Shown one piece after another: positions 15,553-53,545 of a stretch of 64,000 bases of DNA (its first letter is position 1; each line of letters opens with the position of its first letter). The position numbers and the translations under genes are program-made. The DNA lies in NCBI GenBank assembly GCA_963921825.1, contig OY997588.1:83829043-83893042 (forward strand), in the 5' to 3' direction. This stretch comes from Erodium maritimum (taxonomy: Eukaryota > Streptophyta > Magnoliopsida > Geraniales > Geraniaceae). The notes under the pieces are model-generated. The model was not told the DNA's origin, searched no databases, and was given only the letters and a program-made list of their open reading frames with translations.

Positions 15553-16909
15553 TGATGCGGACGCATCTTGGCATTAAAAATGCCACATTTAGAGGGACTT
15601 TATCGTTGATTTTAGCCCATTATTGTCTCATTCTCTCGTATTTTACTCGTTTCCAGCACTTCTCATGTTTCACAGGTTATAGCATGGAATACGAGCAAAA
15701 ACATGTCAAAAAGGGGACAAATTCGAAGTTGTAAACTCGAGGAGCAGCTGAAGGACAGCCATCACGGATCCGTGACCGACCCGTCACGGGTAGGGTCACG
15801 GAGCCGTGACGAAGATCGAGAATTGGCCAAGACGTTCTGATCCGTCACGGATCCGTGATGGTGTCCGTGACGGATGCCATCACGGAGCCGTGACGCGCGC
15901 GCAGAGTTGTTTCCCAAACTCGCTTCAGACTTGACTTTTACCCTTTTTAAACCTAAAATTAGCCTCCAATAGATCTAACTTGTAATTTTGAGAGCTAAGA
16001 AGAGGGGAGAGTTGAGAGCAAGCTAGAGGAGAGGATTTGCACTTGAAGAACATCATTGTAATCAAATATTGGGTATTGTATTTCTCTACTTTGGTCAATT
16101 ATGAAGCTTTGTTCATGTTCATCAATGGTGTTTTCTTCTTCCTTGCTCATGAGTAACTAAAACCCCATAATCTAGGGTTATGGGGGATTAGAGATGTGTT
16201 TTCCAATGTGTTGATTGTATGAATGAGGATTGTGTAGAATGATTTGATTTAGGGTTTGTATTTAATTTAATCTTAATGCTCTATCTCCCGGGTAGGCCTG
16301 ATAGAAGGTGTGAATTACAATCTGACACTCGTGAGAGGTGGGTTGCAATTAGGTCAGAGATCTTATACAAATTGGGTTTAAATCTAGACTAGTGATAGCT
16401 AGGTTAACACGATTGCAATAACCATAGGGTTCAAACCGAAAGTTAGAAATTATCAAAGAACGTAATGCTTTGGGTCTCCCTACATCCTGATTCGTGAGAG
16501 CTGGGTGGTTAGATTCCATTAGGGTCCGAAACAACGTGAGGAGTTAGGACTAGTTTGAGAGATAATTCGTTGCCCCTAAAATCAGAACAACTTCACAATG
16601 TTCATCGTCAGTTAAATGCATTGGAAACGGTCTCTATGAACCCACAACCTTAGATTACTTTTTCTCTGAATTAAAACTCTTCTAAGCTTTGTGATTACTG
16701 GTTCATTGTCATTTCGATTACTATTTACTTTTCATGTTTTGAAACAAAACCATCTTTTAATCGAGATAGCGTGACAACAACCTTGAGATAGAACGTGCTT
16801 GACTCGTGCTCCCTTGGGTACGATAATCCGGAACTTAAATTCTAAAAATACTACTTGACGACCGGTACGCTTGCCGTGTCCTTTTCTGTGTTAAAACCGC
16901 AGGGCGTCA
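15553..16909 (+). repeat. Athila-1 3' LTR
   Basis: It begins TGATGCGGAC and ends GGGCGTCA. The last two thirds match the LTRs at 46026-47460 and 55652-57086 and, in reverse, 26533-28213 (for example CTATCTCCCGGGTAGGCCTG, and the end CGGTACGCTTGCCGTGTCC). The 5' third is unlike them and holds the palindrome cluster. The start is placed at TGATG rather than TGTTGATG because the solo LTR at 26533 shows a perfect duplication with that boundary. Confidence 0.88.
15762..15893 (+). repeat. TCACGGATCCGTGA palindrome cluster in the 3' LTR
   Basis: Perfect 14-bp palindromes lie at 15762-15775 and 15845-15858; near-perfect TCACGGAGCCGTGA copies lie at 15796-15809 and 15880-15893, with half-sites between. 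The cluster occupies the upstream (U3-like) part of the LTR. Confidence 0.85.
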
Positions 16910-26532: not shown

Positions 26533-28213
26533 TGACGCCCTATGGTTTTAGCATAGAGAACGGGCACAACAAGCGTACCGATCATCAAGTAGTATTTGGA
26601 ATGTAAGTCCCGGTTTTATCGTACCCAAGGGAGCACAAGATAAGAAATTTATATTTGAAGTTTGTTATTAGGCTATTTCGTTAAAATGATGGTTCTGGTT
26701 TTAAAACATGTACTGTAAACAATAACGAAAATCTGAATAAGTATTCAGGTAAATCAGAAGAGATGAGAATCAATGAAAAAACAATCAAGGGTATGAGTTC
26801 ATAGTCTTCATTTCCACATATTTAATCAACGATAATTATTGTGAAGTTGACTATTATAGGGGCAATGGATTATCTCTCAAACTAGTCCTAACTTCTCTCG
26901 AATTTTTCGGACCCTAATGGAATCTAACCACCTAGTTCTCCCGAATCAAGGTGTAGGAAGACCCAAAGCACTATGTTCTTTGATAATTTCTAACTTTCGA
27001 AATAATTCTATAGTTATTTTAATTGTGTTAACCTAGCTATCCCTAGTCTAGATTTAAACCCAACTTACTATTGAGTTTAAACTAATTATGATTCTCATCT
27101 CTCGAGTGTTAGATCATGATTCACATCATCTATCAAGCCAACACGGGAGACAGAGTATTAAGAGTAAATCAATAATAAAACCTAAACTAGATTCAACCTT
27201 TAGAACATTATGCATTCAATACATGCCAATTCAAATCTCTAATCACCTATAATCCTAGATTATGGAGTTTAGCTACTCATGGAGAAATCATAAGAAGAAG
27301 ATGAAGAAACACAATAATGAGCAATCATTATATCGAAGAGTTGTAGAAATAAATATCAATGTAAGATTACAATGGATGAATTGAAGCTCTAACTTTCTAT
27401 TCTAACACTCCCTTCTCACAATATTCTTGTCCAAGTTGGTCCTCCTTCTTCAAGCTTCAAAGATCTCAACTCTTTACCTTCTAGCTCTCTAAGATTATGC
27501 CAAGAACAAGTTTTTTTAGCCTCAGCCCCGAAATCCCATCCCAAAGTTGCTCTTTTTCTTCTTCAAATCGGATTTGAAAATTTTCCTCTTATCCAAATAG
27601 GCTTTGGAAAATTTCCCCTTCTTGTACTTGAAATTGGATTTAGAAATGGCTGAAATGCGTCACCGAGCGAGTCCTAGAGGGCGGGCGGTTGGGTGGCGTA
27701 GCGGGTCGCAGAGAACGATCAGTTGGTTCACCGAGCGTGTTGCGTAGAGCGAACGGTTAGGCCACCAAGAGGGTGGCGAAGAGAAAATGGTTGGGTCACC
27801 AAGCGGGGCATGGAGAGCAAACGGTTGGGTCATCGGGCGGGGCGCAGAGGGCGACCGGGAGAGCGGCGAAGCTGGTCACAGACCCGTGCTGGTTCGTTGG
27901 CCGGATCGGTCGTAACCCCTTTACGAAAGTTGTAGATCTCTGAATTTTGTTTGATTTGTCATATAATATGAGGCAATTGGTATTCGGATGACGAAGTTAT
28001 GCCCTTCAAAAGATCAGCCAACCTCTAAAGCTTCTTAAACCAATTTTTCCTCCATCTCAACCCTTTTTTCGATCAAAGAAACCACAAAACACAATTTGAG
28101 AAAAAGTACGAGTAAAAGTAGGAAAGTGGACCAAATTATACAACCCTAAGACTAAAAAGCTCAACAATGTGGGATACAAACATCCAAAACCGATACTTTT
28201 TACGTCCACATTA
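26533..28213 (-). repeat. Athila solo LTR, minus strand
   Basis: On minus it begins TAATGTGGACG and ends GGGCGTCA, matching the other Athila LTRs in its downstream part (GGTACGATAA, the CTATCTCCCG-type block, the ...CTAGATTATGG wording). The 5-bp sequence GTATC flanks it exactly on both sides (26528-26532 and 28214-28218), the target duplication expected after LTR-LTR recombination removed the internal part. Its first dinucleotide is TA instead of TG, a likely point change. Confidence 0.88.
27661..27864 (+). repeat. 34-bp minisatellite, about six copies, inside the solo LTR
   Basis: Consecutive 34-bp units begin CACCGAGCG or CACCAAGCG and end ACGGTTGGGT, diverged from each other. They lie in the U3-like third of the LTR, the same zone where Athila-1 has its palindromes. 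Confidence 0.8.
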
Positions 28214-28848: not shown

Positions 28849-30269
28849 TGTTAGTCTTAGTGCCCGTAGTTCAATCCTAAATGTCCAAATGTATATATCA
28901 TCGTTAGCAATAAAATTAAAACGGCTTTATATTACTTTTGTGTTGGAGTAATATATCGATGTGTGCTCTGATCTATGCCCACAATGCGAATAGAACCGTA
29001 GATCGAGATAGATCACACTCGATGGGTCCCTAGTCAACAAAGCTTCACTAGAAGCGACTAGTATGAAAGATGGCTCTTTATGGATTACGTTCTTTTAGTC
29101 ATTGGAATGTGATTCTGGAGTCTGATCATAGATATCATGTGGGACATGATATTGGACGACCCGACATGAATATGTGCCATAGATCAAGTCATGAACATAT
29201 TCATTGTCGTAGCTTGTCATGTATCCTAAGACCAAGGAGTCTTACTGAGTTTGACCTGAGCCTAATGTTGTCCGTAACAGGGCTTCCATAACGGCCAAGA
29301 TTGGCTTGGGGACGGAATGCATGAGTGACACGAAAGACGGCTAAGGGATTTATCCCTCATACTGCGGTATGGGAAAGATATCGGTTCTCGGCCGCTTGCT
29401 CGAGAGTGACTGAAAGAATAGCATGGCCATGCACATGACACTAAGTATCATATATTCAGTCATCTCACATATCAAGGAACAATGATTGAGAATAATAAGG
29501 ATGACGACTCTATGCCTTATCTCAATCAGGATATCAGAGATAAAAGGATAATGACAGGGACGACGGAAATGTTAGAATCGACAAGGTCGATTCGTTATGC
29601 AGTGTCAGGCAATACTAAAGTCTCGTTATTTTCCACTTAAATAGGATCAAGTAAAATGATATTTTACGTTGATCTATTGACATGCGTAAACCTAAGGGTC
29701 ACACGAGAGGATGAAACTCATTAACACATTTATGGAGAATGACCAAAAGGGAGTTGTCTCGGGACATGACAAAAACTGGGTTTTGGGTCATGTGCCCGTA
29801 AGTGAATAGGACTTTACGAATCGAGACAAGGCTTGGAGTCTTGGATTGATCACGTCGGATAATGTTGGACATTTCCGGTTTGGAAGGCTTGGAGGCGATG
29901 AGCACGTCAAGGGACCTCGTTGGGAATGGCTACGAGCCATGTTCTAAGAGGCCCATGAGAGGCCCATGGAAATAATTAATCAAGGTCTTGTTTAATTAGC
30001 ACTAAGTATGGAAGACATGGATTAAAGTGTTAGTGATTCATCACCTAACCACATCATGTCCACCCATATTTAGAACCATACTTGTCCTATTTACACCATG
30101 CTTCTCTACACCTTACTTGTCCTTGTTGTTGTTGTTGGATTAAGTAATCTTATTCACATAACAAAACACAAGACAAAAGGAAGAACACAATTTTATCTTC
30201 TTCCTCTCTCTCTAGGTTTTGGCCAATACTTTTTCCTCTCCAAGATTTGTGTTCTTTTGTTCTAAATAC
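28849..30269 (+). repeat. Copia-3 left LTR, first part
   Basis: It starts TGTTAGTCTTAGTGCCCG. It is interrupted at ...TCTAAATAC by copia-2 and resumes at 38731 with the duplicated AATAC followed by AAGAACTACGTGG. Confidence 0.92.
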
Positions 30270-31956
30270 TGTTAGTCTTAGTGCTCGTAGTTCAATACTA
30301 AATGTCCAAATGTATATATCATCGTTAGCAATAAAATTAAAGCGGCTTTATATTACTTATGTGTTGGAGTAATATATCGATGTGTGCTCTGATCTATGCC
30401 CACCATGCGAATAGAACCATAGATCGAGATAGATCACACTCGATGGGTCCCTAGTCAACAAAGCTTCACTAGAAGCGACTAGTATGAAAGATGGCTCTTT
30501 ATGGCTTACGTTCTGTTAGTCATTGGAATGGGATTCCGGAGTCTGATCATAGATATCATGTGGGACATGATATTGGACGACCCGCCCTGAATATGTGCCA
30601 TAGATTAAGTCATGAACATATTCAGTGTCGTAGCTTGTCATGTATCCTTAGACCAAGGAGTCTTTGTGATTGCTATGTAGTCAACAACTGAGTTTGACCT
30701 GAGCCTAACGTTGTCCGTAACAGGGCTTCCATAACGGCCAGGATTGGCTTGGGGACGGGCTACATGAGTGACACGAAAGGCGGCTAAGGGATTTATCCCT
30801 CATACTGAGGTATGAGAAAGATATCGGTTCTCGGCCGCTTGATCGAGAGTGACTGAAAGAATAGCATGGCCATGCACATGATACTGGGTATCATATCTTC
30901 AGTCATCTCACATATCAAGGAACGGTGATTGAGAATAATAAGGATGACGGCTCTATGCCTTATCTCAATCAGGATATCGGAGATAAAAGGATAATGACAG
31001 GGACGACGGAAAGGTTAGAATCGACAGGGTCGATTCGCTATGCAGTGTCAGGCAATACTAAAGTCTCGTTAGTTGCCACTTAAATAGGATCAAGTAAAAT
31101 GGGATTTTACGTTGATCTATTGACATGCATAAACCTAAGGGTCACACCGGAGGATGAAACTCATTGACACATTTATGGAGAATGACCAAAAGGGAGTTGT
31201 CTCGGGACATGACCAAAACTGGGTTTTGGGTCATGTGCCCGTAAGTGAATAGGACTTTACGGATCGAGACAAGGCTTGGAGTCTTGGGATTGATCGCGTC
31301 GGATAATGTTGGACATTTCCGGTATGGAAGGCATGGAGGCGATGAGCGAATCACGGGACCTCGTTGGAAATGGTCACGGGCCATGTTCCAAGAGGCCCAT
31401 GAAAGGCCCATGCAACCAAGGCCCATGGAACTAATTAATCAAGTCTTGATTAATTAGTACTAAGTAAGCAAGACAAGGATTAAGGTGTTGGTGATTCACC
31501 ACCTAACCCAATCTTGTCTTGCCATACTTTGTCCTATTTACACCTTACTTGACACCATACTTGTCCCATGCCTTTAGTTGGACAAGTATGGGTTTTGTTA
31601 TGTTTAAGTCATCTTTTTTCAACATAACAAACACAAGACAAGAATAGGAAACACATTTTCTCTCCCTCTTCCATGGCCATTTCGGGTTTGGCTAGTTTCC
31701 ACCTCCATTTTTGTGTTCTTGAGTCCTCAAATAGAAGAACTACGTGGCTTTGATTCCCATGTGGATACGTAGGCGTCTTGGAGACTCAAGCCAATCATTC
31801 GTTAACCGGTGTTCTTGTTTTGGTAAGAAATAGTGCTGAATTTTTCTCTTGTGAATCCATTTTTTGTTAGTTGTTTCATGGTTTAATCGTCTCTTGGTTT
31901 TCATTGATTTTCCGCTGCGAGTTGGTTCATCTCCAACCCTACCTCGAGACCCAACA
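30270..31956 (+). repeat. Copia-2 left (5') LTR
   Basis: TGTTAGTCTT to GAGACCCAACA, followed after one base by the PBS. The 66- and 94-codon ORFs within it recur in every LTR of the family and are not genes. Confidence 0.95.
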
Positions 31957-31957
31957 G

Positions 31958-31969
31958 TGGTATCAGAGC
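31958..31969 (+). other. Copia-2 primer binding site
   Basis: TGGTATCAGAGC, complementary to the 3' end of initiator tRNA-Met, one base after the LTR. Confidence 0.93.
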
Positions 31970-33512
31970 CGTGCTACCTTCGGGATTCACAAGACGGTGT
32001 TCAAAGTTTCGGTTTTGCTTGAAAGTTTCGTTTTTGGCATGTTGTTTTGCTAAATTGTTTGATAACATGTTTTAAATTCTTGTTTATGGATTTAATGCAT
32101 GTAAAATGAATTTTTGAAAATTATTTCAAATCTGGAAATTTTGAAAAAAATTTGATTTTTCGGGTCTCGGGAGCGGGACTCTCGGGGAGCCGAAACCGGG
32201 ACCGAACGGGGCTCCGTTGGACGGAGCTAGGCCAAGCATGACCATTGGATGGTTGATATGCCAAGGCTAAACCGTTTTGTTAGTTATGACGAGTTTGGAA
32301 CCGTCATGACGAACTCGAAGATCAAATGTTCAAAAGTTTCATTTTTGAACGGTTTCGATAAACCGAGCATCAGAAAATTTCGAAACTTGGCTATTAATTA
32401 AAACCGGAAAATCACATGATGTTTGATAACATGCTTGTTTGATAACACGATGTGTGATGTGATGTTGGCATGGTGTACATAATAGCCCCGAGCTCGATTT
32501 AATTATTTATCGCTTTTCACGGCCTGCGAGCCGTTAGAGTTAGCGTGTAATTATTCTTTCAAGGTGTGGTCGTCGAACCACTTGTTTGTAATATTTATTT
32601 ATTCCCGACCTGCGAGTCGTCTATTAAATTGTAATATTTTACTCAAGACGAAGAAAGGGCGAAAAGGTCATTTGGTGGCTTTTCGGGTGTTGGCATCGGC
32701 TTGGAGTCGGTGGAGCTCAAGAAGCTAGTGGGAGTTAGTTTAGGGGGCTATTATGTGCACATTTATCGCTTTATGCTTGGTTTAGTTTATGCATGATTAA
32801 TTCTATGTGTTTTAGAATTGCATGCTTAACTTTATTTACCGAGCATATCACCTCACATGCAAAGATAAAATTGGAATTTTAATCCTTGTGTGTGAACCCT
32901 TAGAACCGTCATTGCATTGGATGTAGTTGACGGGTTCAAAGGAAGAATTACATTGGATGTAATTTGAGGCATCATTGCATTTGGAATGTAGTTGATGTGC
33001 TCATCGCATCTAGGATGTGCCAAAGTTTTGAACACAACTGGACAAGTAAAAGCGGGTCATGTCTGATACCTCCCAATCATCAACACCTTACTACCTCCCC
33101 GTCCTATGGGTGTCGTGCGCATTAGCGGAGCATCCATGGGGAAGCGGGGTAGTAGGTTTGGACGACATATGTGGGTGTCGTGCGCATTAGCGGAGCACCT
33201 ACATAGTGACGAGCCATAGTTGAAAATTGGTGGACCCGACTACGATTCTCAGCCTGAGGTTGAGCTAGGGTAACAGATAGGGTAAGTCGTGTACATAAGT
33301 ACATACCCTAGCCAAGAGTCACATTGGATGTGATTGGATGGAGTCCTACCTACATAGCTCGATTAAGTGGTGAGCATTAGTTCAGCTTAATCGAGTGAAT
33401 CAAGGATCTTGGTTTCAGATTCTAAAGGTTTAGAATCGATTGTTGGTGTTTAAGCTTGATCTTCATAAAATTTATTCAGTTTACTGATTGAATTTTATCT
33501 GTTGTAGATCAA
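31970..33512 (+). other. Copia-2 untranslated leader
   Basis: A 1.54-kb leader before the gag ATG. Mini-hairpins with a TGG loop lie at 32947-32963 (ATTACAT/ATGTAAT) and 33319-33333 (TCACAT/ATGTGA). A roughly 29-bp unit containing GTCGTGCGCATTAGCGGAGC is present twice (about 33107-33135 and 33175-33203). It has no gene. Confidence 0.75.
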
Positions 33513-33746
33513 ATGGCAAATTCAGCGAACACTAATAGTTTGTCATTAAAAACCATTCTTGACAGGGTCAAGCTAAATGGGACAAACTATTTGGACTGGT
33601 ACAGAATTTTGAGGATAGTCCTCAAGTCTGAACGCAAAGAATATGTCCTTGACAAGGCTGTCTCTAAGACCATATCAGAGTTACATGAAGTGTTATTAAT
33701 TGCTGAGAAGAATATATCAGGGATCTGGGATCCAAGGATATTCTGA
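33513..33746 (+). pseudogene. gag: Copia-2 gag N-terminal remnant
   Basis: A 77-codon frame, MANSANTNSLSLKTILDRVK then LNGTNYLDWYRILRIVLKSE: the start of a plant copia gag. It ends soon after KTISELHEVLL, with the bulk of capsid deleted, and the zinc-knuckle portion continues in another frame. The same truncation exists in copia-1 (8791-9024) and copia-3 (40708-40941), so it was inherited. Confidence 0.88.
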
Positions 33747-34135
33747 TGGTCAACAAGGGAATTGGAAGTGGCAAGGGCGGGGCCCATGCGCACTTGGCAG
33801 GAAAGATGAGACACATGAGAATGTCTGCTTCTACTGCCAACAGCCTGGTCATTGGAACCGGGATTATAGGAAGTTCACGGCTGATCTGAAGAAGGGCAGT
33901 GGGACTGCGCCTTCATCAAATAGCCTGGATGATCTGAAGAAGGACAGTAGGACTGCGCCTTCATCAGGAAACCTGGATGATCTAAGGAAGGGCGGTGGGA
34001 CCGTGCCTTTATCCGGTATTAACTCTATAGAGCTACATCTCTCTACTTCCAAAGATTCATGGGTATTAGATACCAGGACTGAATCTCACACATGCACTTA
34101 TATATGGTGGCTGAAAGTAGGAGAGGTTTGGAAAG
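33747..34135 (+). pseudogene. Copia-2 gag zinc knuckle, 16-codon repeats and protease site
   Basis: In the frame running to 34221: CFYCQQPGHWNRDYR is a CCHC knuckle with the last cysteine changed to tyrosine. It is followed by three 48-bp repeats at 33883-34017 (DLKKGSGTAPSS-type), then SWVLDTRTESHTCT. The last matches the aspartic protease site, but D-T-R replaces D-T-G, so it should be inactive. The frame is then lost before the integrase region. Confidence 0.82.
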
Positions 34136-34141
34136 CACGAA

Positions 34142-34615
34142 GTGGACCTCAGAGTTGTGGCAACTGCTGTAGGATCCATGAGTCTTGCTTTGCCAAGAGG
34201 CCTTGTCTTAGTACTGTATAATGTATATTGCATACCTACTTTTAGTAGGAATATTATATCTGTATCCGTGTTTGACAAGGAAGGATATAATGTTAATATT
34301 GGAAATGGAGTTTTCAATGTTCTATGCAATGATATGTTTTATACCAGTACTGACATGGTTGGAGGATTGTACATATTAGATATGGGTAACAATGCCTCAA
34401 GTTCTATATATTCCGTTAATACCAAGAGGTCTAAATCCAACGATTTAAACCTAACTCTGTTATGGTACTGTCATTTGGGTCGCATAAACAAGAAGCGCCT
34501 ATCAGCACTTCAGAAGTGCGGGCTTTCAGGTTCATTCGAATTCCATTCGATAGATAGGTGCAAGGTTTGTTTGATGGGCAAAATGACTAAAGTGCCCTTT
34601 TATCGATCGCGATGA
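34142..34615 (+). pseudogene. Copia-2 protease end and GAG-pre-integrase domain
   Basis: This 157-codon frame runs from the protease-integrase linker (LYNVYCIPTFSRNIISV) through LLWYCHLGRINKKRLSAL to CKVCLMGKMTK, the HHCC-type zinc-binding part of integrase. A one-base change near 34600 (PFYRSR, then stop) breaks it from the core at 34632. Confidence 0.85.
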
Positions 34616-34631
34616 AAGGGCGGGTGAATTA

Positions 34632-34931
34632 TTGGGGCTGATACACTCGAATGTGTGTAGACCAATAAGTTCACTTGCCAGGAGGGGTTTTAGCTACTTT
34701 ATCACATTTACTGATGATTACAGCAAATATGGTTATGTCTATTCGCTGAGACATAAGTCTGAAGCTTTTGATAAATTCAAAGAGTTTAAGACTAAAGTAG
34801 AAAACCAGCTCGACAAAGGTATTAAGGCACTTCGATTGGATCGAGGTGGACTATACTTGACCACAGAGTTATTAGATCATCTAAAAGAGAATGGGATCCT
34901 TTTGGAATGGACTCCTCCTGGGACACTGTAG
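34632..34931 (+). pseudogene. Copia-2 integrase core
   Basis: This 99-codon frame contains LIHSNVCRPISSLARRG: asparagine stands where the first DDE aspartate belongs. YFITFTDDYSKYGYVY and LRLDRGG (second aspartate kept) follow. It stops at 34929; just beyond, GVAKRRNR shows lysine in place of the glutamate. Two of three catalytic residues are thus altered. Confidence 0.85.
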
Positions 34932-35109
34932 ATGAAAGGTGTAGCCAAACGGAGAAATCGGACATTGTTAGACAATGATCCGTTCCATTATTAGTTGGAC
35001 TGATCTCCCAATCTCTTTCTGGGATTATGCTCTAGAGACGACCGCATTCATAGTGAATCGGGCTTCGACGAAGGGTGTGGAAGGGACACCATTTTAAAAA
35101 TGGTACGGG

Positions 35110-35379
35110 ATGATGCCCGCTTTGTCCTTCCTAAAGATTTGTGGTTGCGAGGCTTATGTGAAACATTTGGTTTCGACTAAGCTCGAACCAAGATCTGAGA
35201 TATGCACCTTCATATGGTGTCCCAAAGCAACAAGGGGATACTATTTCTACAATCCCAGTGAGAACATGGTGTTCGTCGCTTGGGGTGGGGTCTTTATGGA
35301 AAAGAAGTTTTGTTTCCAAAGACGTCATTGGAAGGACTGTGCATCTCGAAGAAATTCAGGATGGTACAGATCTGTCTAA
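35110..35379 (+). pseudogene. Copia-2 integrase C-terminal segment
   Basis: LSFLKICGCEAYVKHL, then RGYYFYNPSENMVFVAWGGV and FMEKKF, match the copia integrase C-terminus. It is in a different frame from the core. The gap 34932-35109 holds degraded coding remnants. Confidence 0.82.
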
Positions 35380-35467
35380 ACCAGTTGACAACCCAGTAGA
35401 AAGGAGCCAGAGATTTTCGTAGAGTGAGAACCAATTCCTGTTATAATTCCGGAAGGTCCAAGGCGAT

Positions 35468-36455
35468 TTGAAAGGGTCAATCTTCCACCTCCAAGATATG
35501 GTATCCGGAGGTGACAATGAAGTCATGGTGGATCACGATGATCTAGCCACCTTTCAGGAAGTCGTGGATGGGCCCGACTCTGAGTTATGGCTGGGAGCCA
35601 TGAGGGAGGAAATGCAATCCATGTCGGACAACCGAGTCTGGGAACCGGTTGATCCCATCAATGGTGTGAGGACCATCGGATGCAAATGGATCTTCAAGGT
35701 GAAGATGGACATGGACGGCAACCCTCTGACCTACAAAGCTCAACTGGTGGCGAAAGGTTATAGGCAGATCCAATGGATTGACTATGAGGAAACCTTCTCC
35801 CTAGTGGCTATGGTCAAAATCGATCCAAGTTCTTCTTGACATAACTGCGTATCATAATTACGAGATATGGCAAGTGGATGTCAAAACCGCTTTCCTAAAT
35901 GGAAATTTGACTGAGTACGTTTGTATGTCTCGGCCCAAAGGTTTTGACGATCCGAAGAATAAGGGAAAGATTTATAAGTTGTTGAAATCCATTTATGGAT
36001 TGAAACGAACTTCTCGGAGTTGGATCCTTCGTTTTGATGAAGCTGTAATTGGATTTGGCTTAATCAAGAACGAGGATGAATCTTGCGTTTATAAGAAGGC
36101 TAGTGGGAGCAAGATTACCTTTCTGGTTCTCATTGAAAACAATATCTCAACCTTGCACGAGACTAAAGCTTGGTTGAGGAAGTGTTTTTCAATAAAGGAC
36201 TTAGGCGATGCTTCTTATATCTTATGGATTAAGATATGTAGATATCGCACCAAGAGGGTCTTGGATTTAAGTCAGGGAACCTATGTGAACAAGGCATTGA
36301 GTAGGTTCTTAATGCTCGATTCAAAGAAAGGACTCTTACCCACTAGTCATGGCATTCATCTCAGCAAGACTCAGTGTCCTAAGACACCTGATGAGCTGAA
36401 AAGGATGATGAGAATCTTGTGTGCCTGGGGGCAGGATCAATCATATATGTCATGA
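35468..36455 (+). pseudogene. Copia-2 reverse transcriptase, two frames, YVDD box missing
   Basis: 35468-35839 (frame 2) has SELWLGAMREEMQSM, GCKWIFKVKMDMDG and AQLVAKGYRQ; 35874-36455 (frame 3) has MDVKTAFLNGNL, KSIYGLKRTSRSW, KCFSIKDLGDASYI and LPTSHGIHLSKTQCP. Between KITFLVL and NNISTLHE the frame reads only IE (about 36121-36145), so the YVDD-containing stretch of roughly seven codons is absent. The frame is otherwise intact there, so the loss is a clean in-frame deletion of about 21 nt. Copia-1 and copia-3 share it. Confidence 0.9.
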
Positions 36456-36599
36456 CATGTATGAGACTGGACGTCTCGTAAGCCTTATGTTGTACCAGTA
36501 GACATCAGTCTAACCCGGTGGAAAGATGATGTTGAACTAGTCGTCGAAGGATGAGTAGACGGTAGTTTTCCAAGACAAATCCAGATGACTTTAGAAGTC

Positions 36600-37000
36600 A
36601 GTCAGGATATGTGTTTATGCTTAATGGCAGAGCTTTAGCTGGGAGAGCGTAAAGCAAGATACCATTGCCGAATCTACGACAGGGGCCAAGTACATGGATG
36701 CTATAGAGGCAGCTAAGGAGGCTATGTGGATTTGGAAATTCACGGCAGGGTTGGGTGTAATTAAAAACACGTCCAGCCCGGTGAATCCATTTTGCGACAA
36801 CACAAGGGCCATTGCGCAAGCTAAAAGCCCAGATCGCATAACAAATCCAAACATGTACTACGGCGTATCCACCTAATCAGAGAAATACTGAACTGAGGTG
36901 AAGTGAAGATAACCTATATTGCAATAGATGATAACATAGCCAACCCATTGACTAAGGCAGTGTCGCTGCCTAAACATGTTAGACATGTAAAGTCGATAGG
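36600..37000 (+). pseudogene. Copia-2 RNase H remnant
   Basis: DAIEAAKEAMWIWKF and CDNTRAIAQAKSPDR (in the frame from 36694) mark the RNase H domain; upstream GYVFMLNGRALAG lies in another frame, and an in-frame stop follows YYGVST. Traces of the C-terminal NPLTKA-type motif lie near 36940. The PPT follows. Confidence 0.8.
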
Positions 37001-37028
37001 GGACATATTGGAGTTTAGATTGGAACTA

Positions 37029-37043
37029 GGGCAAGTGGGAGAT
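37029..37043 (+). other. Copia-2 polypurine tract
   Basis: GGGCAAGTGGGAGAT directly before the right LTR. Confidence 0.9.
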
Positions 37044-38730
37044 TGTTAGTCTTAGTGCTCGTAGTTCAATACTAAATGTCCAAATGTATATATCATCGTT
37101 AGCAATAAAATTAAAGCGGCTTTATATTACTTATGTGTTGGAGTAATATATCGATGTGTGCTCTGATCTATGCCCACCATGCGAATAGAACCATAGATCG
37201 AGATAGATCACACTCGATGGGTCCCTAGTCAACAAAGCTTCACTAGAAGCGACTAGTATGAAAGATGGCTCTTTATGGCTTACGTTCTGTTAGTCATTGG
37301 AATGGGATTCCGGAGTCTGATCATAGATATCATGTGGGACATGATATTGGACGACCCGCCCTGAATATGTGCCATAGATTAAGTCATGAACATATTCAGT
37401 GTCGTAGCTTGTCATGTATCCTTAGACCAAGGAGTCTTTGTGATTGCTATGTAGTCAACAACTGAGTTTGACCTGAGCCTAACGTTGTCCGTAACAGGGC
37501 TTCCATAACGGCCAGGATTGGCTTGGGGACGGGCTACATGAGTGACACGAAAGGCGGCTAAGGGATTTATCCCTCATACTGAGGTATGAGAAAGATATCG
37601 GTTCTCGGCCGCTTGATCGAGAGTGACTGAAAGAATAGCATGGCCATGCACATGATACTGGGTATCATATCTTCAGTCATCTCACATATCAAGGAACGGT
37701 GATTGAGAATAATAAGGATGACGGCTCTATGCCTTATCTCAATCAGGATATCGGAGATAAAAGGATAATGACAGGGACGACGGAAAGGTTAGAATCGACA
37801 GGGTCGATTCGCTATGCAGTGTCAGGCAATACTAAAGTCTCGTTAGTTGCCACTTAAATAGGATCAAGTAAAATGGGATTTTACGTTGATCTATTGACAT
37901 GCATAAACCTAAGGGTCACACCGGAGGATGAAACTCATTGACACATTTATGGAGAATGACCAAAAGGGAGTTGTCTCGGGACATGACCAAAACTGGGTTT
38001 TGGGTCATGTGCCCGTAAGTGAATAGGACTTTACGGATCGAGACAAGGCTTGGAGTCTTGGGATTGATCGCGTCGGATAATGTTGGACATTTCCGGTATG
38101 GAAGGCATGGAGGCGATGAGCGAATCACGGGACCTCGTTGGAAATGGTCACGGGCCATGTTCCAAGAGGCCCATGAAAGGCCCATGCAACCAAGGCCCAT
38201 GGAACTAATTAATCAAGTCTTGATTAATTAGTACTAAGTAAGCAAGACAAGGATTAAGGTGTTGGTGATTCACCACCTAACCCAATCTTGTCTTGCCATA
38301 CTTTGTCCTATTTACACCTTACTTGACACCATACTTGTCCCATGCCTTTAGTTGGACAAGTATGGGTTTTGTTATGTTTAAGTCATCTTTTTTCAACATA
38401 ACAAACACAAGACAAGAATAGGAAACACATTTTCTCTCCCTCTTCCATGGCCATTTCGGGTTTGGCTAGTTTCCACCTCCATTTTTGTGTTCTTGAGTCC
38501 TCAAATAGAAGAACTACGTGGCTTTGATTCCCATGTGGATACGTAGGCGTCTTGGAGACTCAAGCCAATCATTCGTTAACCGGTGTTCTTGTTTTGGTAA
38601 GAAATAGTGCTGAATTTTTCTCTTGTGAATCCATTTTTTGTTAGTTGTTTCATGGTTTAATCGTCTCTTGGTTTTCATTGATTTTCCGCTGCGAGTTGGT
38701 TCATCTCCAACCCTACCTCGAGACCCAACA
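37044..38730 (+). repeat. Copia-2 right (3') LTR
   Basis: 1687 bp, no difference from 30270-31956 seen by eye; followed by AATAC, the target duplication. Confidence 0.95.
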
Positions 38731-39148
38731 AATACAAGAACTACGTGGCTTTGATTCCTGTGGTGGATACGTAGGCGTCTTGGAGACTCAAGCCGGTCAT
38801 CTTTTCTTGGTGTTCTTGAACAAATAGAGAAGAAAAGGTGCAGAATTTTCTGCACTGTTTCGTGTCCGACCAGCCATCTTCATGAGCTCGATCGGAGGTT
38901 CATCCAAGGTCCGATGAAGCTTATTTTTGGAGTTAATGTTCTCCACATATTGGTCTTCAAAGGGAACGGTGGAATTTGGATTTCAACGGTTCGTTATTCA
39001 GATAAACGAGCTGAAAGTTGAGTCACTTCATTTATTTCGTTTTGGTCTTGTGTATCTAATCTTTGATAGTTTTTCCTTCCATGGTCTCGGGTTTTATTTG
39101 CTTTCGCTGCGAGTTGGTTCATCTCCAACCCTACCTCGAGACCCTATA
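38731..39148 (+). repeat. Copia-3 left LTR, second part
   Basis: The interrupted LTR resumes with the second AATAC, then AAGAACTACGTGG. It ends GAGACCCTATA, degraded from CCCAACA. The copia-3 PBS TGGTATCAGAGC follows at 39150-39161. Confidence 0.9.
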
Positions 39149-39161
39149 GTGGTATCAGAGC

Positions 39162-40707
39162 CGTGCTAACTTCGGAATGCACAAGACGATGTTCAAAGTT
39201 TCGGTTTTGCTTGAAAGTTTCGCTTTTGGCATGTTGTTTTTCTAAATTGTTTGATAACATGTTTTAAATTCTTGTTTATGGATTTAATGCATGTAAAATG
39301 AATTTTTGAAAATTATTTCATATCTGGAAATTTTGAAAAAAGTTTGATTTTTCGGGTCTCGCGAGCGGCACTCTCAGGGAGCCGAAACCGGGACCGAACG
39401 GGGCTCCGTTGGACGGAGCTAGGCCAAGCATGACCATTAGCTGGTCGATATTCCAAGTCTAAACCGTTTTGTTAGTTATGACGAGTTTGGAACCATCATG
39501 ACGAACTCGAAAATCAAATGCTCAAAAGTTTCATTTTTGAACGGTTTCGATAAACCGAGCATCAAAAAAATTCGAAACTTGGCAATTAATTAAAACCGGA
39601 AAATCACATGATGTTTGATAACATGCTAGTTTGATAACACGATGTGTGATGTGATGTTGGCATGATGTACATAATAGCCCCGAGCTCGATTTAATTATTT
39701 ATCGCTTTTCACGGCCTGCGAGCCGTTAAAGTTAGCGTGTAACTATTATTTCAAGGTGTGGTCGTCGAACCACTTGTTTGTAATATTTATTTATTCCTGA
39801 CCTACGAGTCGTGTATTAAATTGTAATATTTTGCTCAAGACAAAGAAAGGGCGAAAAGGTCATTTGGTGTCTTTTCGGGTGTTGGCATCGGCTTGGAGTC
39901 GATGGAGCTCAGGAAGCTAGTGGGAGTTAGTTTAGGGGGGCTATTATGTGCACATTTATCGCTTTATGCTTGTTTTAGTTTATGCATGATTAATTCTATG
40001 TGTTGTCTTAGAATTGCATGCTTAACTTTATTTACCGAGCATATCACCTCACATGCAAAGATAAAATTGGAATTTTAATCCTTGTTTGTGAGCCCTTAGA
40101 ACCTTCATTACATTAGATGTAGTTGACGGGTTCGAAGGAAGAATTGCATTGGATGTAATTGGAGGCATCAATATATTTGGAATGTATTTGATGTGCTCAT
40201 CGCATCTAGGATGTACCCAAAGTTTTAAACACAACCAGACAAGTAAAAACGGGTCATGTCCGATACCTCCCAATTATCAACACTTTACTACCTCCCCGCC
40301 CTATGGGTGTCGTGCGCCTTAGCGGAGCATCTATGGGAAAGCGGGGTAGTAGGTTGGGACGACATATGTGGGGGTCGTGCGCCTTAGCGGATCACCTACA
40401 TATTGGCGGGTCATAGTTGAAAATTGGTGGACCCGACTACGATTCTCAGCTAGGGTTGAGCTAGGGTATCAGATAGGGTAAGCCGTGTACTTAAGTACAT
40501 ACCCTAGCCAAGATTCACATTGAATGTGATTGGACGGGGTCCTACCTACATAGCTCGATTGAGTGGTGAGCCTTCGTTCAGCTTGATCGAGCGAATCAAG
40601 GATCTTGTTTTAGATTCTAAAGGTATAGAATCAATTGTTGGTGTTAAAGCTTGATCTTCATAAAATTTATTCAGTTTACTGATTGAATTTTATCTGTTGT
40701 AGATCAA
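39162..40707 (+). other. Copia-3 untranslated leader
   Basis: It parallels the copia-2 leader, including the doubled unit with GTCGTGCGCCTTAGCGGA (about 40307 and 40375) and the degraded mini-hairpins near 40143 and 40512. No gene. Confidence 0.75.
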
Positions 40708-40941
40708 ATGACAAATTCAGCGAACATTAATAGTTTGTCATTAAAAACCATTATTGACAGGGTCAAGCTAAATGGGACAAACTATTTAGACTGGTACAGA
40801 ATTTTAAGGTTAGTCCTCAAGTCTGAACGCAAAGAATATGTCCTTGACAAGGCTGTATCTAAGACCATATCAGAGTTACATGAAGTGTCATTAACTGCTG
40901 AGAAGAATATATCAGGGATCTGGGATCCAAGGATATTCTGA
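40708..40941 (+). pseudogene. gag: Copia-3 gag N-terminal remnant
   Basis: 77 codons, MTNSANINSLSLKTIIDRVK, the same truncated gag as in the other two copies. The knuckle region (CFYCQQPGHWNRDY), the 48-bp repeats and the protease site (DTR in place of DTG) follow at about 41020-41285 in other frames. Confidence 0.87.
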
Positions 40942-41336
40942 TGGTCGACAAGGGAATTGCAAGTGGCAAGGGCGGGGCCCATGCGCACTTGGCGGGAAAG
41001 ATGAGACACATAAGAATGTCTGCTTCTACTGCCAACAACCTGGTCATTGGAACCGGGATTACAAGAAGTTCACGGCTGATCTGAAGAAGGGCAATGGGAC
41101 TGCGCCTTCATCAAATAGCCTGGATGATCTAAAGAAGGGCAGTAGGACTGTGCCTTCATCAGGAAACCTCGATGATCTAAGTAAGGGTGGTGAGACCGTG
41201 CCTTCATCCGGTATTAACTCTATATAACTACATCTCCCTACTTCCAAAGATTCATGGGTATTAGATACCAGGACTGAATCTCACACATGCACTAACATAT
41301 AGTGGCTGAAAGTAGGAGAGGTTTGGAAAGCACGAA

Positions 41337-42069
41337 GTGGACCTCAGAGTTGTGGAAACTGCTGTAGGATCCATGAGTCTTGCTTTGCCAAGTGGCCTTG
41401 TCTTTGTATTGTATAATGTATATTGCATACCTACTTTTAGTAGGAATATTATATTTGTATCCGTGTTCGACAAGGAAGGATATAATGTTAATATTGTAAA
41501 TAGAGTTTTCAATGCTGTATGCAATGATATGTTTTATACCAGTACTAACTTGGTTGGAGGATTGTACATATTAGATATGGGTAACAATGCCTCAAGTTCT
41601 ATATATTATGTTAATACCAAGATGTCTAAATCCAACGATTTAAACCTAACTCTGTTATGGCACTGTCATTTGGGCCGCATAAACAAGAAGTGAATATCAG
41701 CACTTCAGAAGTGCGGGCTTTCAGGTCCATTCGAATTCCATTCGATCGATAGGTGCAAGGTTTGTTTGATGGGAAAAATGACTAAAGCGCCCTTTATCGA
41801 TCGCGGTGAAAGGGCGGGTGAATTATTGGGGCTGATACACTCGAATGTGTGTAGACCAATAAGTTCACTTGCTAGGAGGGGTTTTAGCTACTTTATCACA
41901 TTTACTGATGATTACAGTAAATATGGTTATGTCTATTCGGTGAGACATAAGTATGAAGCTTTTGATAAATTCAAAGAGTTTAAGACTAAAGTAGAAAACC
42001 AGCTCAACAAAGGTATTAAGGCACTTCGATTGGATCGAGGTGGAAAATACTTGACCATAGAGTTATGGT
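41337..42069 (+). pseudogene. Copia-3 pre-integrase and integrase core, truncated
   Basis: 41337-41693 covers linker and GAG-pre-integrase to HCHLGRINKK, then a stop. 41766-42069 continues with GKMTKAPFIDRG, LIHSNVCRPI (first catalytic Asp changed to Asn) and LRLDRGGKYLTIEL. At about 42066 the sequence jumps directly to the RT-upstream segment, so the integrase C-terminus and third catalytic residue are deleted (roughly 640 bp missing compared with copia-2). Confidence 0.85.
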
Positions 42070-42995
42070 ATCCGGAGGTGACAATGAAGTCATGGTGGAT
42101 CACGATGATCCAGCCGCCTTTCAAGAAGTCGTGGATGGGCCCGACTCCGAGTTATGGCTGGGAGCCATAAGGGAGGAAATGCAATCCATGTCGGAAAGCC
42201 GAGTCTAGGAACTGGTTGATCCCATCAATGGCGTGAGGACCATCGGATGCAAATGGATCTTCAAGGTGAAGATTGACATGGACGGAAACCCTCTAACCTA
42301 CAAAGCTCAACTGGTGGCGTAAGGTTATAGGCAGATCCAATGAATTGACTAAAAGGAAACCTTCTCCCTAGTGGCTATGGTCAAAATCGATCCGAATTCT
42401 TCTTGACATAACTGCGTATCATAATTACGAGATATGGCAAGTGGATGTCAAAACCGCTTTCGTAAATGGAAATTTGACTGAGTACGTTTGTATGTCTCAG
42501 CCCAAAGGTTTTGACGATCCGAAGAATAAGGGAAAGATTTATAAGTTGTTGAAATCCATTTATGGATTGAAATGAACTTCTCGGAGTTGGAACCTTCGTT
42601 TTGATGAAGCTGTAATTGGATTTGGCTTAATCAAGAACGAGGATGAATCTTGCGTTTATAAGAAGGCTAATGGGAGCAAGATTACCTTTCTGTTTCTCAT
42701 TGAAAACGACATCCCAACCTAGCACGAGACTAAAGCTTGGTTGAGGAAGTGTTTTTCAATAAAGGACTTAGGCGATGCTTCTTATATCTTAGGGATTAAT
42801 ATATGTAGAGATCGCACCAAGAGGGTCTTGGATTTAAGTCAGGGAACCTATGTGAACAAGGCATTGAGTAGGTTCTCAATGCTCGATTCAAAGAAAGGAC
42901 TCTTACCCACTAGTCATGGCATTCATCTCAACAAGACTCAGTGTCCTAAGACACCTGATGAGCTAAAAGGAATGATGCGAATCTCATGCGGCTAG
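42070..42995 (+). pseudogene. Copia-3 reverse transcriptase, multiple stops, YVDD box missing
   Basis: It starts right after the deletion (GGTATCCGGAGGTGACAATG). It keeps WKWIFKV-type, AFVNGNL and KSIYGLK wording but has several stops. At about 42690-42712 it reads FLFLIENDI, with the same missing YVDD stretch. The last readable piece is 42741-42995 (KCFSIKDLGDASYILGI to SHGIHLNKTQCPKTPDE). Confidence 0.85.
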
Positions 42996-43164
42996 GGGCA
43001 GGATCGATCATATATGCCATGACATGTACGAGACCGGACATCTCGTAAGCCTTATGTTGTACCTGTAGACATTAGTCTAACCCGGGGGAAAGATGATGTT
43101 GAACTAGTCGTCGAAGGATGAGTAGACTCTAATTTTCCAAGACAAATCCAGATGACTTTAGAAG

Positions 43165-43465
43165 TCAGTCAGGATATGTGTTTACGCTGAATGATGGAGC
43201 TTTAGCTGGAAAAGCGTAAAGCAAGATACCGTCGTCGAATCTACGACAGAGGCCAAGTACATGGATGCTGCAGAGGCTGCTAAGGAGGCTATGTGGATTT
43301 GGAAATTCACGGCAGGGTTGGGTGTAATTAAAAACTCATCCAGCCCGGTGAATCCATTTTGCGACAACACAAGGGCCATTGCGCAAGCTAAAAGCCCAAA
43401 TCGCATAACAAATCCAAACATGTACTGCGGCATATCCACCTCATCAGAGAAATACTGAAACGAGG
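43165..43465 (+). pseudogene. Copia-3 RNase H remnant
   Basis: MDAAEAAKEAMWIWKFTAGL and CDNTRAIAQAKSPNR in the frame 43261-43458. It is followed by degraded pol end and the PPT. Confidence 0.8.
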
Positions 43466-43609
43466 TGAAGTGAAGATAACCTATATTGCAACAAATGATA
43501 ACATAGCAAACCCTTTGACTAAGGCACTATCGTTGCCTAAACATGTTATACATGTAAAGTCGATGAGGATATATTGGAGTTTAGATTGGAACTAAGGCAA
43601 GTGTGAGAT

Positions 43610-45480
43610 TGTTAGTCTTAGTGCCCGTAGTTCAATCCTAAATGTCCAAATGTATATATCATCGTTAGCAATAAAATTAAAATGACTTTATATTACTTAT
43701 GTGTTGGAGTAATATATCGATGTGTGCTCTCATCTATGCCCACAATGCGAATAGAACCGTAGATCGAGATAGATCACACTCGATGGGTCCCTAGTCAACA
43801 AAGCTTCACTAGAAGCGACTAGTATGAAAGATGGCTCTTTATGGCTTACGTTCTGTTAGTCATTGGAATGGGATTCCGGAGTTTGATCATAGATGTCATG
43901 TGGGACATGATATTGGACAACCCGACATGAATATGTGCCATAGATCAAGTCATGAACATATTCATTGTCGTAGCTTGTCATGTATCCTTAGACCAAGGAG
44001 TCTTTGTGATCGCTATGCAGTAAACAACTGAGTTTGACCTGAGCCTAACGTTGTCCGTAACAGGGCTTCCATAACGGCTAGAATTGGCTTGGGGACGGAC
44101 TGCATGAGTGACACGAAAGACGGCTAAGGGATTTATCCCTCATACTGCGGTATGGGAAAGATATCGGTTCTCGGCCGCTTGATCGAGAGTGACTGAAAGA
44201 ATAGCATGGCCATGCACATGATACTGGGTATCATATATTCAGTCATCTCACATATCAAGGATCAGTGATTGAAAATAATAAGGATGACGACTCTATGCCT
44301 TAACTCAATCAGGATATAAGAGATAAAAGGATAATGACAGGGACGACGGAAATGTTAGAGTCGACAGGGTCGATTCGTTATGCAGTGTCAGGAAATACTA
44401 AAGTCTCGTTAGTTTCCACTTAAATAGGATCAAGTAAAATGAGATTTTACATTGATCTATTGACATGCATAAACCTAAGGGTCACACCAGAGGATGGAAC
44501 TCATTAACACATTTATGGAGAATGGCCAAAAGGGAGTTGTCTCAGGACATGACAAAAACTGGGTTTTGGGTCATGTGCTCGTAAGTGAATAAGACTTTAC
44601 GGATCGAGACATGGAGTCTTGGATTGATCACGTCGGATAATGTTGGACATTTCCGATATAGAAGGCTTGGAGGCGATGAGCACGTCACGGGACCTCGTTG
44701 GGAATGGCTACGGGCCATGTTCTAAAAGGCCCATGAGAGGCCCATGCAACCAAGGCCCATGGAAATAATTAATCAAGGTCTTGATTAATTAGCACAAAGT
44801 ATGGAAGACATGGATTAAAGTGTTGGTGGTTCATCACCTAACCACATCATGTCCACCCATACTTAGAACCATACTTGTCCTATTTACACCATGCTTCTCT
44901 ACACCTTACTTGTCCTTGTTGTTGTTGTTGTTGGATTAAGTCATCTTATTCACATAACAAAACACAAGACAAAAGGAAGAACACAACTCCATCTTCTTCC
45001 TCTCTCTCTAGGTTTTGGCCAAGACTTTTTCCTCTCCAAGATTTGTGTTCTTGAGTTCTAAATACAAGAACTACGTGGCTTTGATTCCTGGGGTGGATAC
45101 GTAGGCGTCTTGGAGACTCAAGCCGATCATCTTTTCTTGGTGTTCTTGAAAAAATAGAGAAGAAAAGGTGCAGAATTTTCTGCACTGTTTCGTGTCCGAC
45201 CAGAGCCACCTTCATGAGCTCGATCGAAGGTTCATCCAAGGTCCGATGAAGCAGATTTTAGGAGTGAATGTTCTCCACATATTGGTCTTCAAAGTGAACG
45301 GTGGAATTTGGATGTCAACGGTTCCTTATTCAGATAAATGAGCTGAAAGTTGAGTCACTTCATTTATTTCGTTTTTGTCTTGTGTATCTAATCTTTGGTA
45401 TTTTTTCCTTGCATGGTCTCGGGTTTTATTTGCTTTCGCTGCGAGTTGTTTCATCTCTAACCCTACCTCGAGACACAACA
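43610..45480 (+). repeat. Copia-3 right (3') LTR
   Basis: 1871 bp from TGTTAGTC to GAGACACAACA, then the GACAT duplication. It contains a GTT microsatellite near 44919-44935 and the extra block after 45140 seen also in the left LTR. Confidence 0.92.
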
Positions 45481-46025: not shown

Positions 46026-47460
46026 TGATGTGGACAAAAACTGCATCGATTCTAGATGTTTTTGGCCCACATTCTTGAGTATTTTAATCCCGGGATTATA
46101 TAATTTGGACCACTTTTTCTCGTTACTCGTATTGTGCCTCTCATTATGTTTTGTAGGTGATTTGATCGAAAAAATGGTTAAAATAGAGGAAAACCCGGTT
46201 TTTGGGAGTTTTGGAAGTTGACCGATCTTGCAAAGAGCATAAATTCTTCATAAAAACTCCGATTGCCTTGAATTGTATGTCAAATCGAAGGGAATTCAGA
46301 GATCTACAACTTTCGTCAAGGGCCCAAAGCCGTTCCGGCCCTATATCAGGCCGAGCGAGGCTTACAAACTTCCAGATGGGTTTTCTACTTAAAAAAAAAG
46401 GAAATTTTCCTATTCCAAATCCGAATTTGAGAAGGAAAAAAGGGTCTTCAAGTCCTATACATAGAAGAGCACGAATTTGGAGAAGGGGAACTTGTTTTTG
46501 GGACAATCCTAGAGAACTAGAAGGTGGGGATTGGTGAACTTTGAAGCTTGAAGGAAGAGAAGCAACTTGGGCAAGATTTGTATAAAAAGAGAGTGCTTGA
46601 ACTCAAACATTGTAATTCTACATTGGTATTGTATTTCCACTACTCTTTCAATATGATGATTGCTTATGAATGTTTTTCTTCATCTTCTTCTTCTTTCTCC
46701 ATGAGTAGCTAAACCCCATAATCTAGGGTTATGGGGGAGTAGAGATTTACTTTCCAATGTATTGAATGTATGAATGAGTATTGTGTTGGTTGATTTGATT
46801 TAGGGTTTGTATTAGATTTGAACTTAATGCTCTATCTCCCGGATAGGCCTGATAGAAGGTGGGAATTGCAATCTGATACTCGTGAGAGGTGGGTTGTAAT
46901 TAGGTCAGAAATCTTATACAAATTGGGTTTAAATCTAGACTAGTGATAGCTATGTTAACACGATTGCAATAACCATAGGATTCAAACCGAAAGTTAGAAA
47001 TTATCAAAGAACGTAATGCTTTGGGTCTCCCTACATCTTGATTCGTGAGAGCTGGGTGGTTAGATTCCATTAGGGTCCGAAACAACGTGAGGAGTTAGGA
47101 CTAGTTTGAGAGATAATTCGTTGCCCCTAAAATCAGATAACTACATATTGTTCATCGTCATTTAATGCATTGGAATTGGTCTCTATGAACCCAAAAACCT
47201 TAGATTATCTTTTTCTCTGATTCTAATCTCTTCTTATTTAACCAAATACTTGTTCACCTTTTAATTACTTGTTTACTTTTGCATCTTTCAAAACCAAAAA
47301 CCATCTTTTTAACGAAATAGCTTAAGTACAAACTTCAAATAGGAATTGTTTGTCTTGTGCTCCCTTGGGTACGATAATCCGGAACTAAAAATCTCGAAAT
47401 ACTACTTGACGACCGGTACGCTTGCCGTGTCCTTTTCTGTGCTAAAAACGCAACGCGTCA
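46026..47460 (+). repeat. Second Athila 5' LTR
   Basis: TGATGTGGAC to ACGCGTCA, the same length as 55652-57086. It is followed by AGTTAA and the PBS. Confidence 0.9.
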
Positions 47461-47466
47461 AGTTAA

Positions 47467-52808: not shown

Positions 52809-53225
52809 GGTTGATTGTACTTTATTGTTTGTGTCTTGGGTGGCCATGAGTGCCCGTTGGGTTGTTGAACCTGTGTTACTTTATTGTTGGTGTCTTGGGT
52901 GGCCGTGAGTGCCGTTGGGTTGTTGAACCCGTGTTACTTTACTGTTGGTGTCTTGGGTGGCCATGAGTGCCCGTGGGGTTGTTGAGCCCGTGAGTTACTG
53001 TTTGGTGTATCTTGGGAGGCCGTGAGTGCCCGTGGGGTTGTTGAGCCCGTGAGTTACTGTTGGTGTGTCTTGGGAGGCCGTGAGTGCCCGTGGGGTTGTT
53101 GAGCCCGTGAGTTACTGTTGGTGTGTCTTGGGAGGCCGTGAGTGCCCGTGGGGTTGTTGAGTCCGTGTTTTACTGTTGGTGTCTTGTGTGGCCATGAGTG
53201 CATGTGGAGTGTTGAACCTGTGTTG
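52809..53225 (+). repeat. 57-60-bp tandem array, about seven copies
   Basis: Units carry TCTTGGGAGGCCGTGAGTGC followed by CCGTGGGGTTGTTGAGCCCG; the central copies are nearly identical and the outer ones diverged, a pattern of unequal crossing-over. Confidence 0.88.
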
Positions 53226-53267
53226 TTGCTGTTTGTTGAACTTGCTTGTGATTGTGATTGTGGTTAC

Positions 53268-53545
53268 CTGAGTGAGAGAGGTTACTGAGACATGTCGACT
53301 GACTGGCCCGACTTTGTGTCGGGGAAGCGCGTGAGTGAGAGAGGTTACTGAGACAGGTGGACCGCCTGGCCTGAGTGGTTCGACAAAGCGCGTGAGTGAG
53401 AGAGGTTACTGAGACAGGTCGACCGCCTGGCCTGAGTGGTTCGGCAAAGCGCGTGAGTGAGAGAGGTTACTGAGACAGGTCGACCGCCTGGCCTGAGTGG
53501 TTCGACAAAGCGCGTGAGTGAAGGAGGTTACTGAGCAGCTGGCGT
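53268..53545 (+). repeat. 60-bp tandem array, about 4.5 copies
   Basis: Units carry TGAGTGAGAGAGGTTACTGA then GACCGCCTGGCCTGAGTGG. A smaller GTGCGATCCTTTGTGATCTT doublet follows at about 53547-53590. Confidence 0.88.

Follow-up and report, generated by a model that had tools for sequence, protein, structure and literature searches.

The window analysed here, 64 kb of the Erodium maritimum genome (C1:83829043-83893042, in an assembly of 763 Mb that lies nearly all within its nine largest contigs), contains three related Ty1/copia elements, here called copia-1, copia-2 and copia-3. They belong to a full-size family whose coding part is dead, and very probably, as judged from sequence comparisons, an intact copia family that the genome also contains mobilises it in trans. 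Supply in trans is needed since the elements' own genes cannot copy them, yet insertions sharing the same lesions are young and independent. An earlier reading of the window, made from its letters alone (the sequence-only reading), had proposed that the family is a parasite mobilised in trans, which spread once its own enzymes had been lost. The genome-wide comparisons support this proposal, and we infer that the intact family is the one that packages and copies the defective elements.

The elements have paired long terminal repeats (LTRs, about 1.69-1.87 kb) with TG..CA ends, a 5-bp target site duplication (TSD), a primer-binding site 3' of the 5' LTR and a purine tract 5' of the 3' LTR, as is typical of Ty1/copia. 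Pfam matches to RVT_2, rve and gag_pre-integrs were found, and their coordinates place the integrase before the reverse transcriptase (RT). The relatives of the elements come from plants, and several of the integrase relatives are labelled "transposon TNT 1-94"; the lineage is probably Angela/Tork, and the primer-binding site presumably matches the initiator Met tRNA. The LTR pair of copia-2 is identical (0/1687 mismatches), as had been noticed, and that of copia-1 has 3/1688 mismatches. The LTR pieces of copia-3 display 80/1829 differences, and this element is thus clearly older. Copia-2 is nested within the 5' LTR of copia-3, in the same orientation and with a TSD of its own, and the TSDs of the three elements are all different, as stated in the sequence-only reading. 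The span given there for the nested pair (28849-43465) does cover copia-2 and copia-3, but it ends short of the end of copia-3 at 45480. The internal parts are 97.4% identical between copia-1 and copia-2, 94.5% between copia-1 and copia-3, and 94.7% between copia-2 and copia-3.

None of the three elements has intact coding frames. In the RT, FLVL or FLFL is joined straight to IEN(D/N)I, and seven residues including the YVDD box are absent, while YVDD is kept in all 14 aligned plant relatives (14 of the 120 listed). Measured against the intact family, this loss is a 21-nt deletion in each of the three. The protease motif DTG is replaced by DTR in copia-2 and copia-3 and by DTM in copia-1. The first Asp of the integrase site has become Asn in all three elements and the second Asp is retained; Glu has become Lys in copia-1 and copia-2, and its position in copia-3 is lost in a 627-nt deletion. 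In each of the three, gag has lost 408 nt, and the aligned position of this deletion is the same. All of these lesions had been called in the sequence-only reading, and each call was borne out. A third shared deletion, also found by comparison with the intact family, removes 77 nt of pol downstream of the RT box. Relative to the same family, the pol piece of copia-2 has 13 indels, of which 12 are not multiples of three, and its gag-protease piece has 11, six of them not multiples of three. The defective family thus has neither the open gag-pol with catalytic residues of an autonomous copia element nor an intact pol of the kind found in BARE-2 and Tos17, the 12 pol indels being frameshifting and the RT box deleted. 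The first integrase Asp has also been lost outside this family, since among 11 aligned integrase relatives Asp is found in nine, Asn in P0121 and His in P0124. P0121 is the best-scoring integrase relative from elsewhere, and it has kept the Glu. Between the zinc knuckle and the protease, all three window copies have about 2.7-2.8 repeats of a 48-bp unit (8525-8655, 33882-34013 and 41077-41208).

The lesions are common to the family across the genome. Three DNA searches of the genome were performed with RT stretches as queries, giving a first list with copia-2, a second with copia-1 and a third with copia-3. Each list holds the best 40 places, taken from 673, 1205 and 2610 first-look candidates, respectively, and copy numbers are lower bounds. 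Together the lists contain at least 120 non-overlapping places on all nine large contigs, three of which are the window's own copies. The matched span is 580-582 bases at all 120 listed places, and there is therefore no room for the missing 21 bases. The same RT junction was read in 30/30 first-list loci, copia-2 counted among them. The first integrase Asp codon is AAT in 28/28 covering copies of this list, and the Glu codon is AAA in 29/29. Ten copies were fetched from the second list and six from the third; the integrase lesions agree in all nine second-list copies that cover the sites and in 6/6 third-list copies. In total, the first Asp is lost in 45/45 covering copies (the three lists with copia-1 and copia-3), Glu has changed to Lys in 45/45 (the three lists with copia-1), and the protease Gly is lost in 18/18 (nine from the second list, six from the third and the three window copies). 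In L013 apparent Asp and Glu codons, and in L018 apparent Asp codons, turned out to lie in non-homologous sequence and were dropped from the counts, and copy k4 of the second-list sample was left out of them. A further DNA search with the leader found six places, but common words were skipped and this is not a copy count.

The RT stretch is 99-100% identical (rounded) in the first and second lists and 96-97% in the third, copia-3 itself excepted. This identity, together with an equal score in 28/40 places of the third list, suggests that the third list is made up not of close copies of copia-3 but of another young sub-family. At least three sub-families thus seem to exist within the defective family. 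In five of the six fetched third-list copies (L175-L192), the protease-integrase stretches are 97.9-98.6% like copia-1 and the LTR starts differ by 0.8-2.1% from copia-2; four of the six have ATG as the protease codon and two have AGG. Such a mix of features hints at recombination among the sub-families.

The ages of the insertions were estimated from LTR pairs. From the first list, 5' LTR and 3' end stretches were fetched for 20 copies, and the 5' LTR was at the expected place in 16. Over about 912 bases, the two LTRs of these 16 have no mismatches in eight copies, one in five, three in one and six in two. Their 5-bp TSDs are exact in 14/16 and all different, the exceptions being L020, which is part of a tandem pair, and L029, which has unequal flanks. 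The third-list pairs have 0-3/480 differences in 6/6 copies, a comparison confined to the LTRs. In the second list both LTR starts were found in 5/10 copies, with two exact TSDs and one with one mismatch; the 3' end of one copy runs on into another unit, one fails the pair alignment (133/453), and the other four pairs have 1, 6, 8 and 16 differences per approximately 500 bases. The dating and the collection of copies, both proposed in the sequence-only reading, thus gave young pairs, differing TSDs and shared lesions. Because the lesions are common, the LTR pairs young and the TSDs exact and different, the sampled young copies were made after the enzyme genes died.

It could be argued that the family instead died after inserting, and that gene conversion has made LTR pairs identical while segmental or tandem duplication has spread the lesions. 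Tandem arrays of defective units with shared LTRs do exist, six units at C5:47834087-47867912 (spacing 6765), two at C4:67165954/67172729 (spacing 6775) and two at C4:36005409/36011985 (spacing 6576). However, such an origin is largely refuted by the exact and different TSDs of the 14 first-list copies, the spread of the 120 places over all nine large contigs and the integrase lesions common to the fetched copies of all three lists, and we regard it as highly improbable.

For mobilisation in trans a helper is needed, and the autonomous relative that the sequence-only reading had suggested looking for is present in the same genome. This intact family was found with protein P0001 as query, and its counts are among the matches listed. 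At least 134 places were scored; 104 of the 134 have a 1350-codon open frame (table count), and in 133/134 the matched stretch has no stop. In the pieces read, 3/3 copies have YVDD as well as the integrase Asp motifs and 2/3 have the searched word around Glu (L147 differs), and the piece from L150 has a zinc knuckle and DTG. The Pfam matches in L145 are gag_pre-integrs, rve, SH3_retrovirus and RVT_2. LTR pairs, compared over 500 bp, are identical in 5/8 copies and have 1, 2 and 13 differences in the others; TSDs are exact in 7/8, the eighth copy continuing into a further unit. The intact LTR (1676 bp in L148) and the defective LTR agree in their end bases and in the primer-binding site that follows, and both families share the final 18 bases 5' of the 3' LTR. 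The LTR-pair divergences of sampled intact and defective copies overlap, these being samples and not a full age distribution. The defective tandem units are 6765-6775 bp long, compared with 7264 bp for intact-family units. Three such units with shared LTRs form an array at C7:56512535-56527063 (spacing 7264).

The intact family is the best candidate, and a probable one, for the helper. Another copia family, now lost or still present, might have served instead, with the intact family being only a sister of the parasite. The last third of the LTR is strongly different between parasite and intact family, and the search covered only one intact family near the parasite among the matches listed, so others could exist. 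Against this stand the agreement of the two families in LTR ends, primer site and polypurine tract, their 95% identical leader and their similarly young age. In addition, 28 RT regions from a first RVT_2 search, tried as close relatives, were rejected since they belong to distant copia families with only 28-38% protein identity. A helper other than the intact family is accordingly considered unlikely. One locus, L143 (C8:34290900-34294200), at first looked like a parasite body joined to a helper LTR, but this chimera was rejected. The intact-type LTR begins inside the parasite 3' LTR, at its position 163, and the locus is an older defective copy, likewise without the RT box, with an intact-type copy nested within its 3' LTR. 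The row 'old_L143' in the LTR tree is thus not a parasite LTR.

When it comes to the relationship between the two families, the control region and the coding region differ. The divergence of copia-2 from the intact family is 4.2% over the initial 1200 bp of the LTR (U3) and 5.25% over the 1.55-kb leader, but reaches 13.0% for pol and 18.1% for third codon positions. The corresponding values are 5.2, 5.4, 13.3 and 18.6% for copia-1 and 7.0, 7.9, 12.4 and 18.5% for copia-3. Likewise, copia-2 is 95.5-96.2% identical to three intact copies in the first 900 bp of the LTR, and 87.2-87.7% in the internal part from RT to LTR. With plain descent, an untranslated leader would not be expected to diverge less than third codon positions (Fisher p 1e-23 for copia-2 against the intact family). 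In the leader-gag piece the best breakpoint lies 1522 nt after the LTR in all three window copies and exceeds the maximum of 300 permutations in each; gag starts at nt 1547, and the divergence thus changes about 25 nt upstream of it. A second change is found inside the LTR at nt 1259-1295, beyond which 26-33% of the sites differ, and the last approximately 480 bp look like a separately swapped module. Between copia-2 and copia-3 the last third of the LTR (e.g., 31470-31956 against 45000-45480) is 31% different, compared with 23% between copia-2 and the intact family, and the rest of the LTR differs by 4-6%. In trees, intact copies are set apart from defective ones with full support when internal parts are compared, while the LTR tree (first 900 bp) does not settle the order of copia-1, copia-2-like and intact LTRs. 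U3 and the leader therefore seem to share a younger ancestor with the helper than the coding region does. This suggests that control and coding regions have been exchanged between the lineages at least once, with either family as the donor.

Without any exchange, selection would have to keep U3 and the leader alike in both families. Promoter and packaging signals are expected to lie in these regions, and between copia-1 and copia-2 the leader diverges less than pol (1.94 vs 3.03%, p 0.04), which would fit some constraint. However, the leader and the dead pol diverge equally between copia-2 and copia-3 (5.53 and 5.34%) and between copia-1 and copia-3 (5.55 and 5.49%), and constraint is thus not favoured. 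Neither does the abrupt change at nt 1522 in all three copies point to selection, nor the finding that the intact copies L146 and L147 diverge alike in LTR (8/900) and pol (27/2844). Selection is for these reasons a rather doubtful explanation.

Exchange, on the other hand, may have taken place more than once. The leaders of copia-1 and copia-2 are 5.4 and 5.25% from the helper and 5.5% from copia-3, and are thus about as near to the helper as to copia-3. The ratio of sites shared by copia-1 and copia-2 to sites found only in copia-3 is 8:58 for the leader, compared with 31:48 for pol (Fisher p 0.0003). These two observations favour the tentative idea that the dead family has stayed mobile by repeatedly taking up a fresh control module, U3 and the leader to just before gag, from its helper. 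The cis sequences would then be renewed while the coding part ages, and the sub-families would differ in how recently they were refreshed. Together with the nesting of copia-2, the seeming presence of at least three sub-families and the tandem arrays, these separate histories of control and coding regions go beyond the sequence-only reading.

Mobilisation by the intact family, with exchange of the control region, would proceed as follows. The defective RNA would keep a primer-binding site, leader, polypurine tract and LTR ends that helper proteins can use, and Gag, RT and integrase of the helper would package, reverse-transcribe and insert this RNA, which encodes none of them. Recombination, for instance by template switching between co-packaged RNAs, may be the source of the shared control region. 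Several points weigh against parts of this account. The helper is assigned from similarity and age, and the last approximately 480 bp of the LTR are 23% different between copia-2 and the intact family. Some copies are found in tandem arrays, and not every copy is thus a separate insertion. The second list is older on average, with an exact TSD in only 2/10 sampled copies. The codon-position counts among parasite copies fit a lack of constraint, but the intact-copia control shows little power, and the low leader divergence between copia-1 and copia-2 has been mentioned above.

Table 1. Copia features in the 64-kb window (positions counted from its first letter).
Feature	Position	Strand	Remarks
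Copia-1, complete element	3811-12267	minus	LTRs 3811-5498 and 10580-12267; internal part 5499-10579
Copia-1 TSD	3806-3810 and 12268-12272		CCCAA
Copia-1 RT stretch, search query	6084-6665	minus	Box deleted
Copia-2, complete element	30270-38730	plus	LTRs 30270-31956 and 37044-38730; internal part 31957-37043
Copia-2 TSD	30265-30269 and 38731-38735		AATAC
Copia-2 primer-binding site and long untranslated leader	31957-33512	plus	Leader about 95% identical to intact family
Copia-2 gag N-terminal remains	33513-33743	plus	Shared 408-nt deletion at about 33670 (position approximate)
Copia-2 protease site	34069-34077	plus	DTR for DTG
Copia-2 integrase, first Asp position	34650-34652	plus	Asn
Copia-2 integrase, Glu position	34947-34949	plus	Lys
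Copia-2 RT stretch, search query	35874-36455	plus	Box deletion at about 36132
Copia-2 polypurine tract region	37010-37043	plus	Last 18 bases same in 3/3 intact-family copies
Copia-3, interrupted older element	28849-45480	plus	Internal part 39149-43609; 3' LTR 43610-45480; TSD GACAT
Copia-3 5' LTR, two pieces around copia-2	28849-30269 and 38736-39148	plus	
Copia-3 RT stretch, search query	42441-43022	plus	Box deleted

The window also contains other repeats. Long open reading frames at 1-3229 resemble, by eye, RT, RNase H and integrase of a gypsy-type element. A 1.44-kb direct repeat (46026-47466 and 55652-57092, 97.3% identical) might be the LTRs of another element, and pieces related to it are found at 16133-16909 and, inverted, at 26533-27400. 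Two minisatellite arrays, with units of 58/117 bp and 61 bp, occupy a GC-richer stretch at 52816-53535. No tRNA genes or Rfam matches at the gathering threshold were found in the 64-kb window.

Elements that parasitise other parasites are already known in plants, and the Erodium family is a new and clear case. The closest likeness noted is to wheat RLC_Angela, which has full-size non-autonomous sub-populations with degenerate coding; their LTRs cluster with the LTRs of autonomous partners, but their internal parts do not (PMC9744471). Like these, the Erodium elements are copia elements of about autonomous length and more than 85% DNA identity, have many frameshifts and stops, are co-active with their partners, and have LTRs nearer to the partner than the internal parts are (PMC9744471). 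Thus near-autonomous size, degenerate coding in young copies, LTRs nearer the partner and overlapping activity are all found in the defective family. It is unlike RLC_Angela in that the likeness to the helper spans the whole leader and stops just before gag, and in that the last third of the LTR differs; the dating, moreover, comes from a sample. Barley BARE-2, with a disrupted gag, is a copia parasite of a related copia family (PMC9744471, PMC3977881). BARE-2 is there said to have only gag non-functional, whereas gag, protease, integrase and RT are all broken in the Erodium family. The mobile rice copia element Tos17 is without gag and is thought to depend on an autonomous relative (PMC3977881); as described there it keeps its pol, while that of the Erodium family is broken.

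In Arabidopsis ddm1, a copia copy without intact open reading frames has transposed, the ATCOPIA57 element AT2TE84980 (PMC8704663). It differs in being about 2 kb long and in representing one insertion, and no coding-competent family member is reported for it (PMC8704663). In grass non-autonomous endogenous pararetroviruses, regulatory sequences of defective and helper forms are reported to be homogenised by region-specific recombination (PMC5491270). These are viruses and not LTR retrotransposons, and the likeness lies in the regulatory sequences that are kept alike. Pairwise recombination among family members in bursts has been described for Onsen (PMC5668417) and is a possible route for the exchange suggested here, although that account does not seem to concern a dead family with a helper. 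Tomato TARE1 was set aside as a comparison, since its authors call it autonomous (PMC3701649).

For annotation, the defective family is a warning that identical LTRs together with RT and integrase homology do not prove autonomy. In this one assembly, both the parasite and its probable helper are represented by many young copies. With this pair it becomes testable which cis sequences are sufficient for mobilisation in trans, and whether a dead family may persist by having its control region renewed from a helper.

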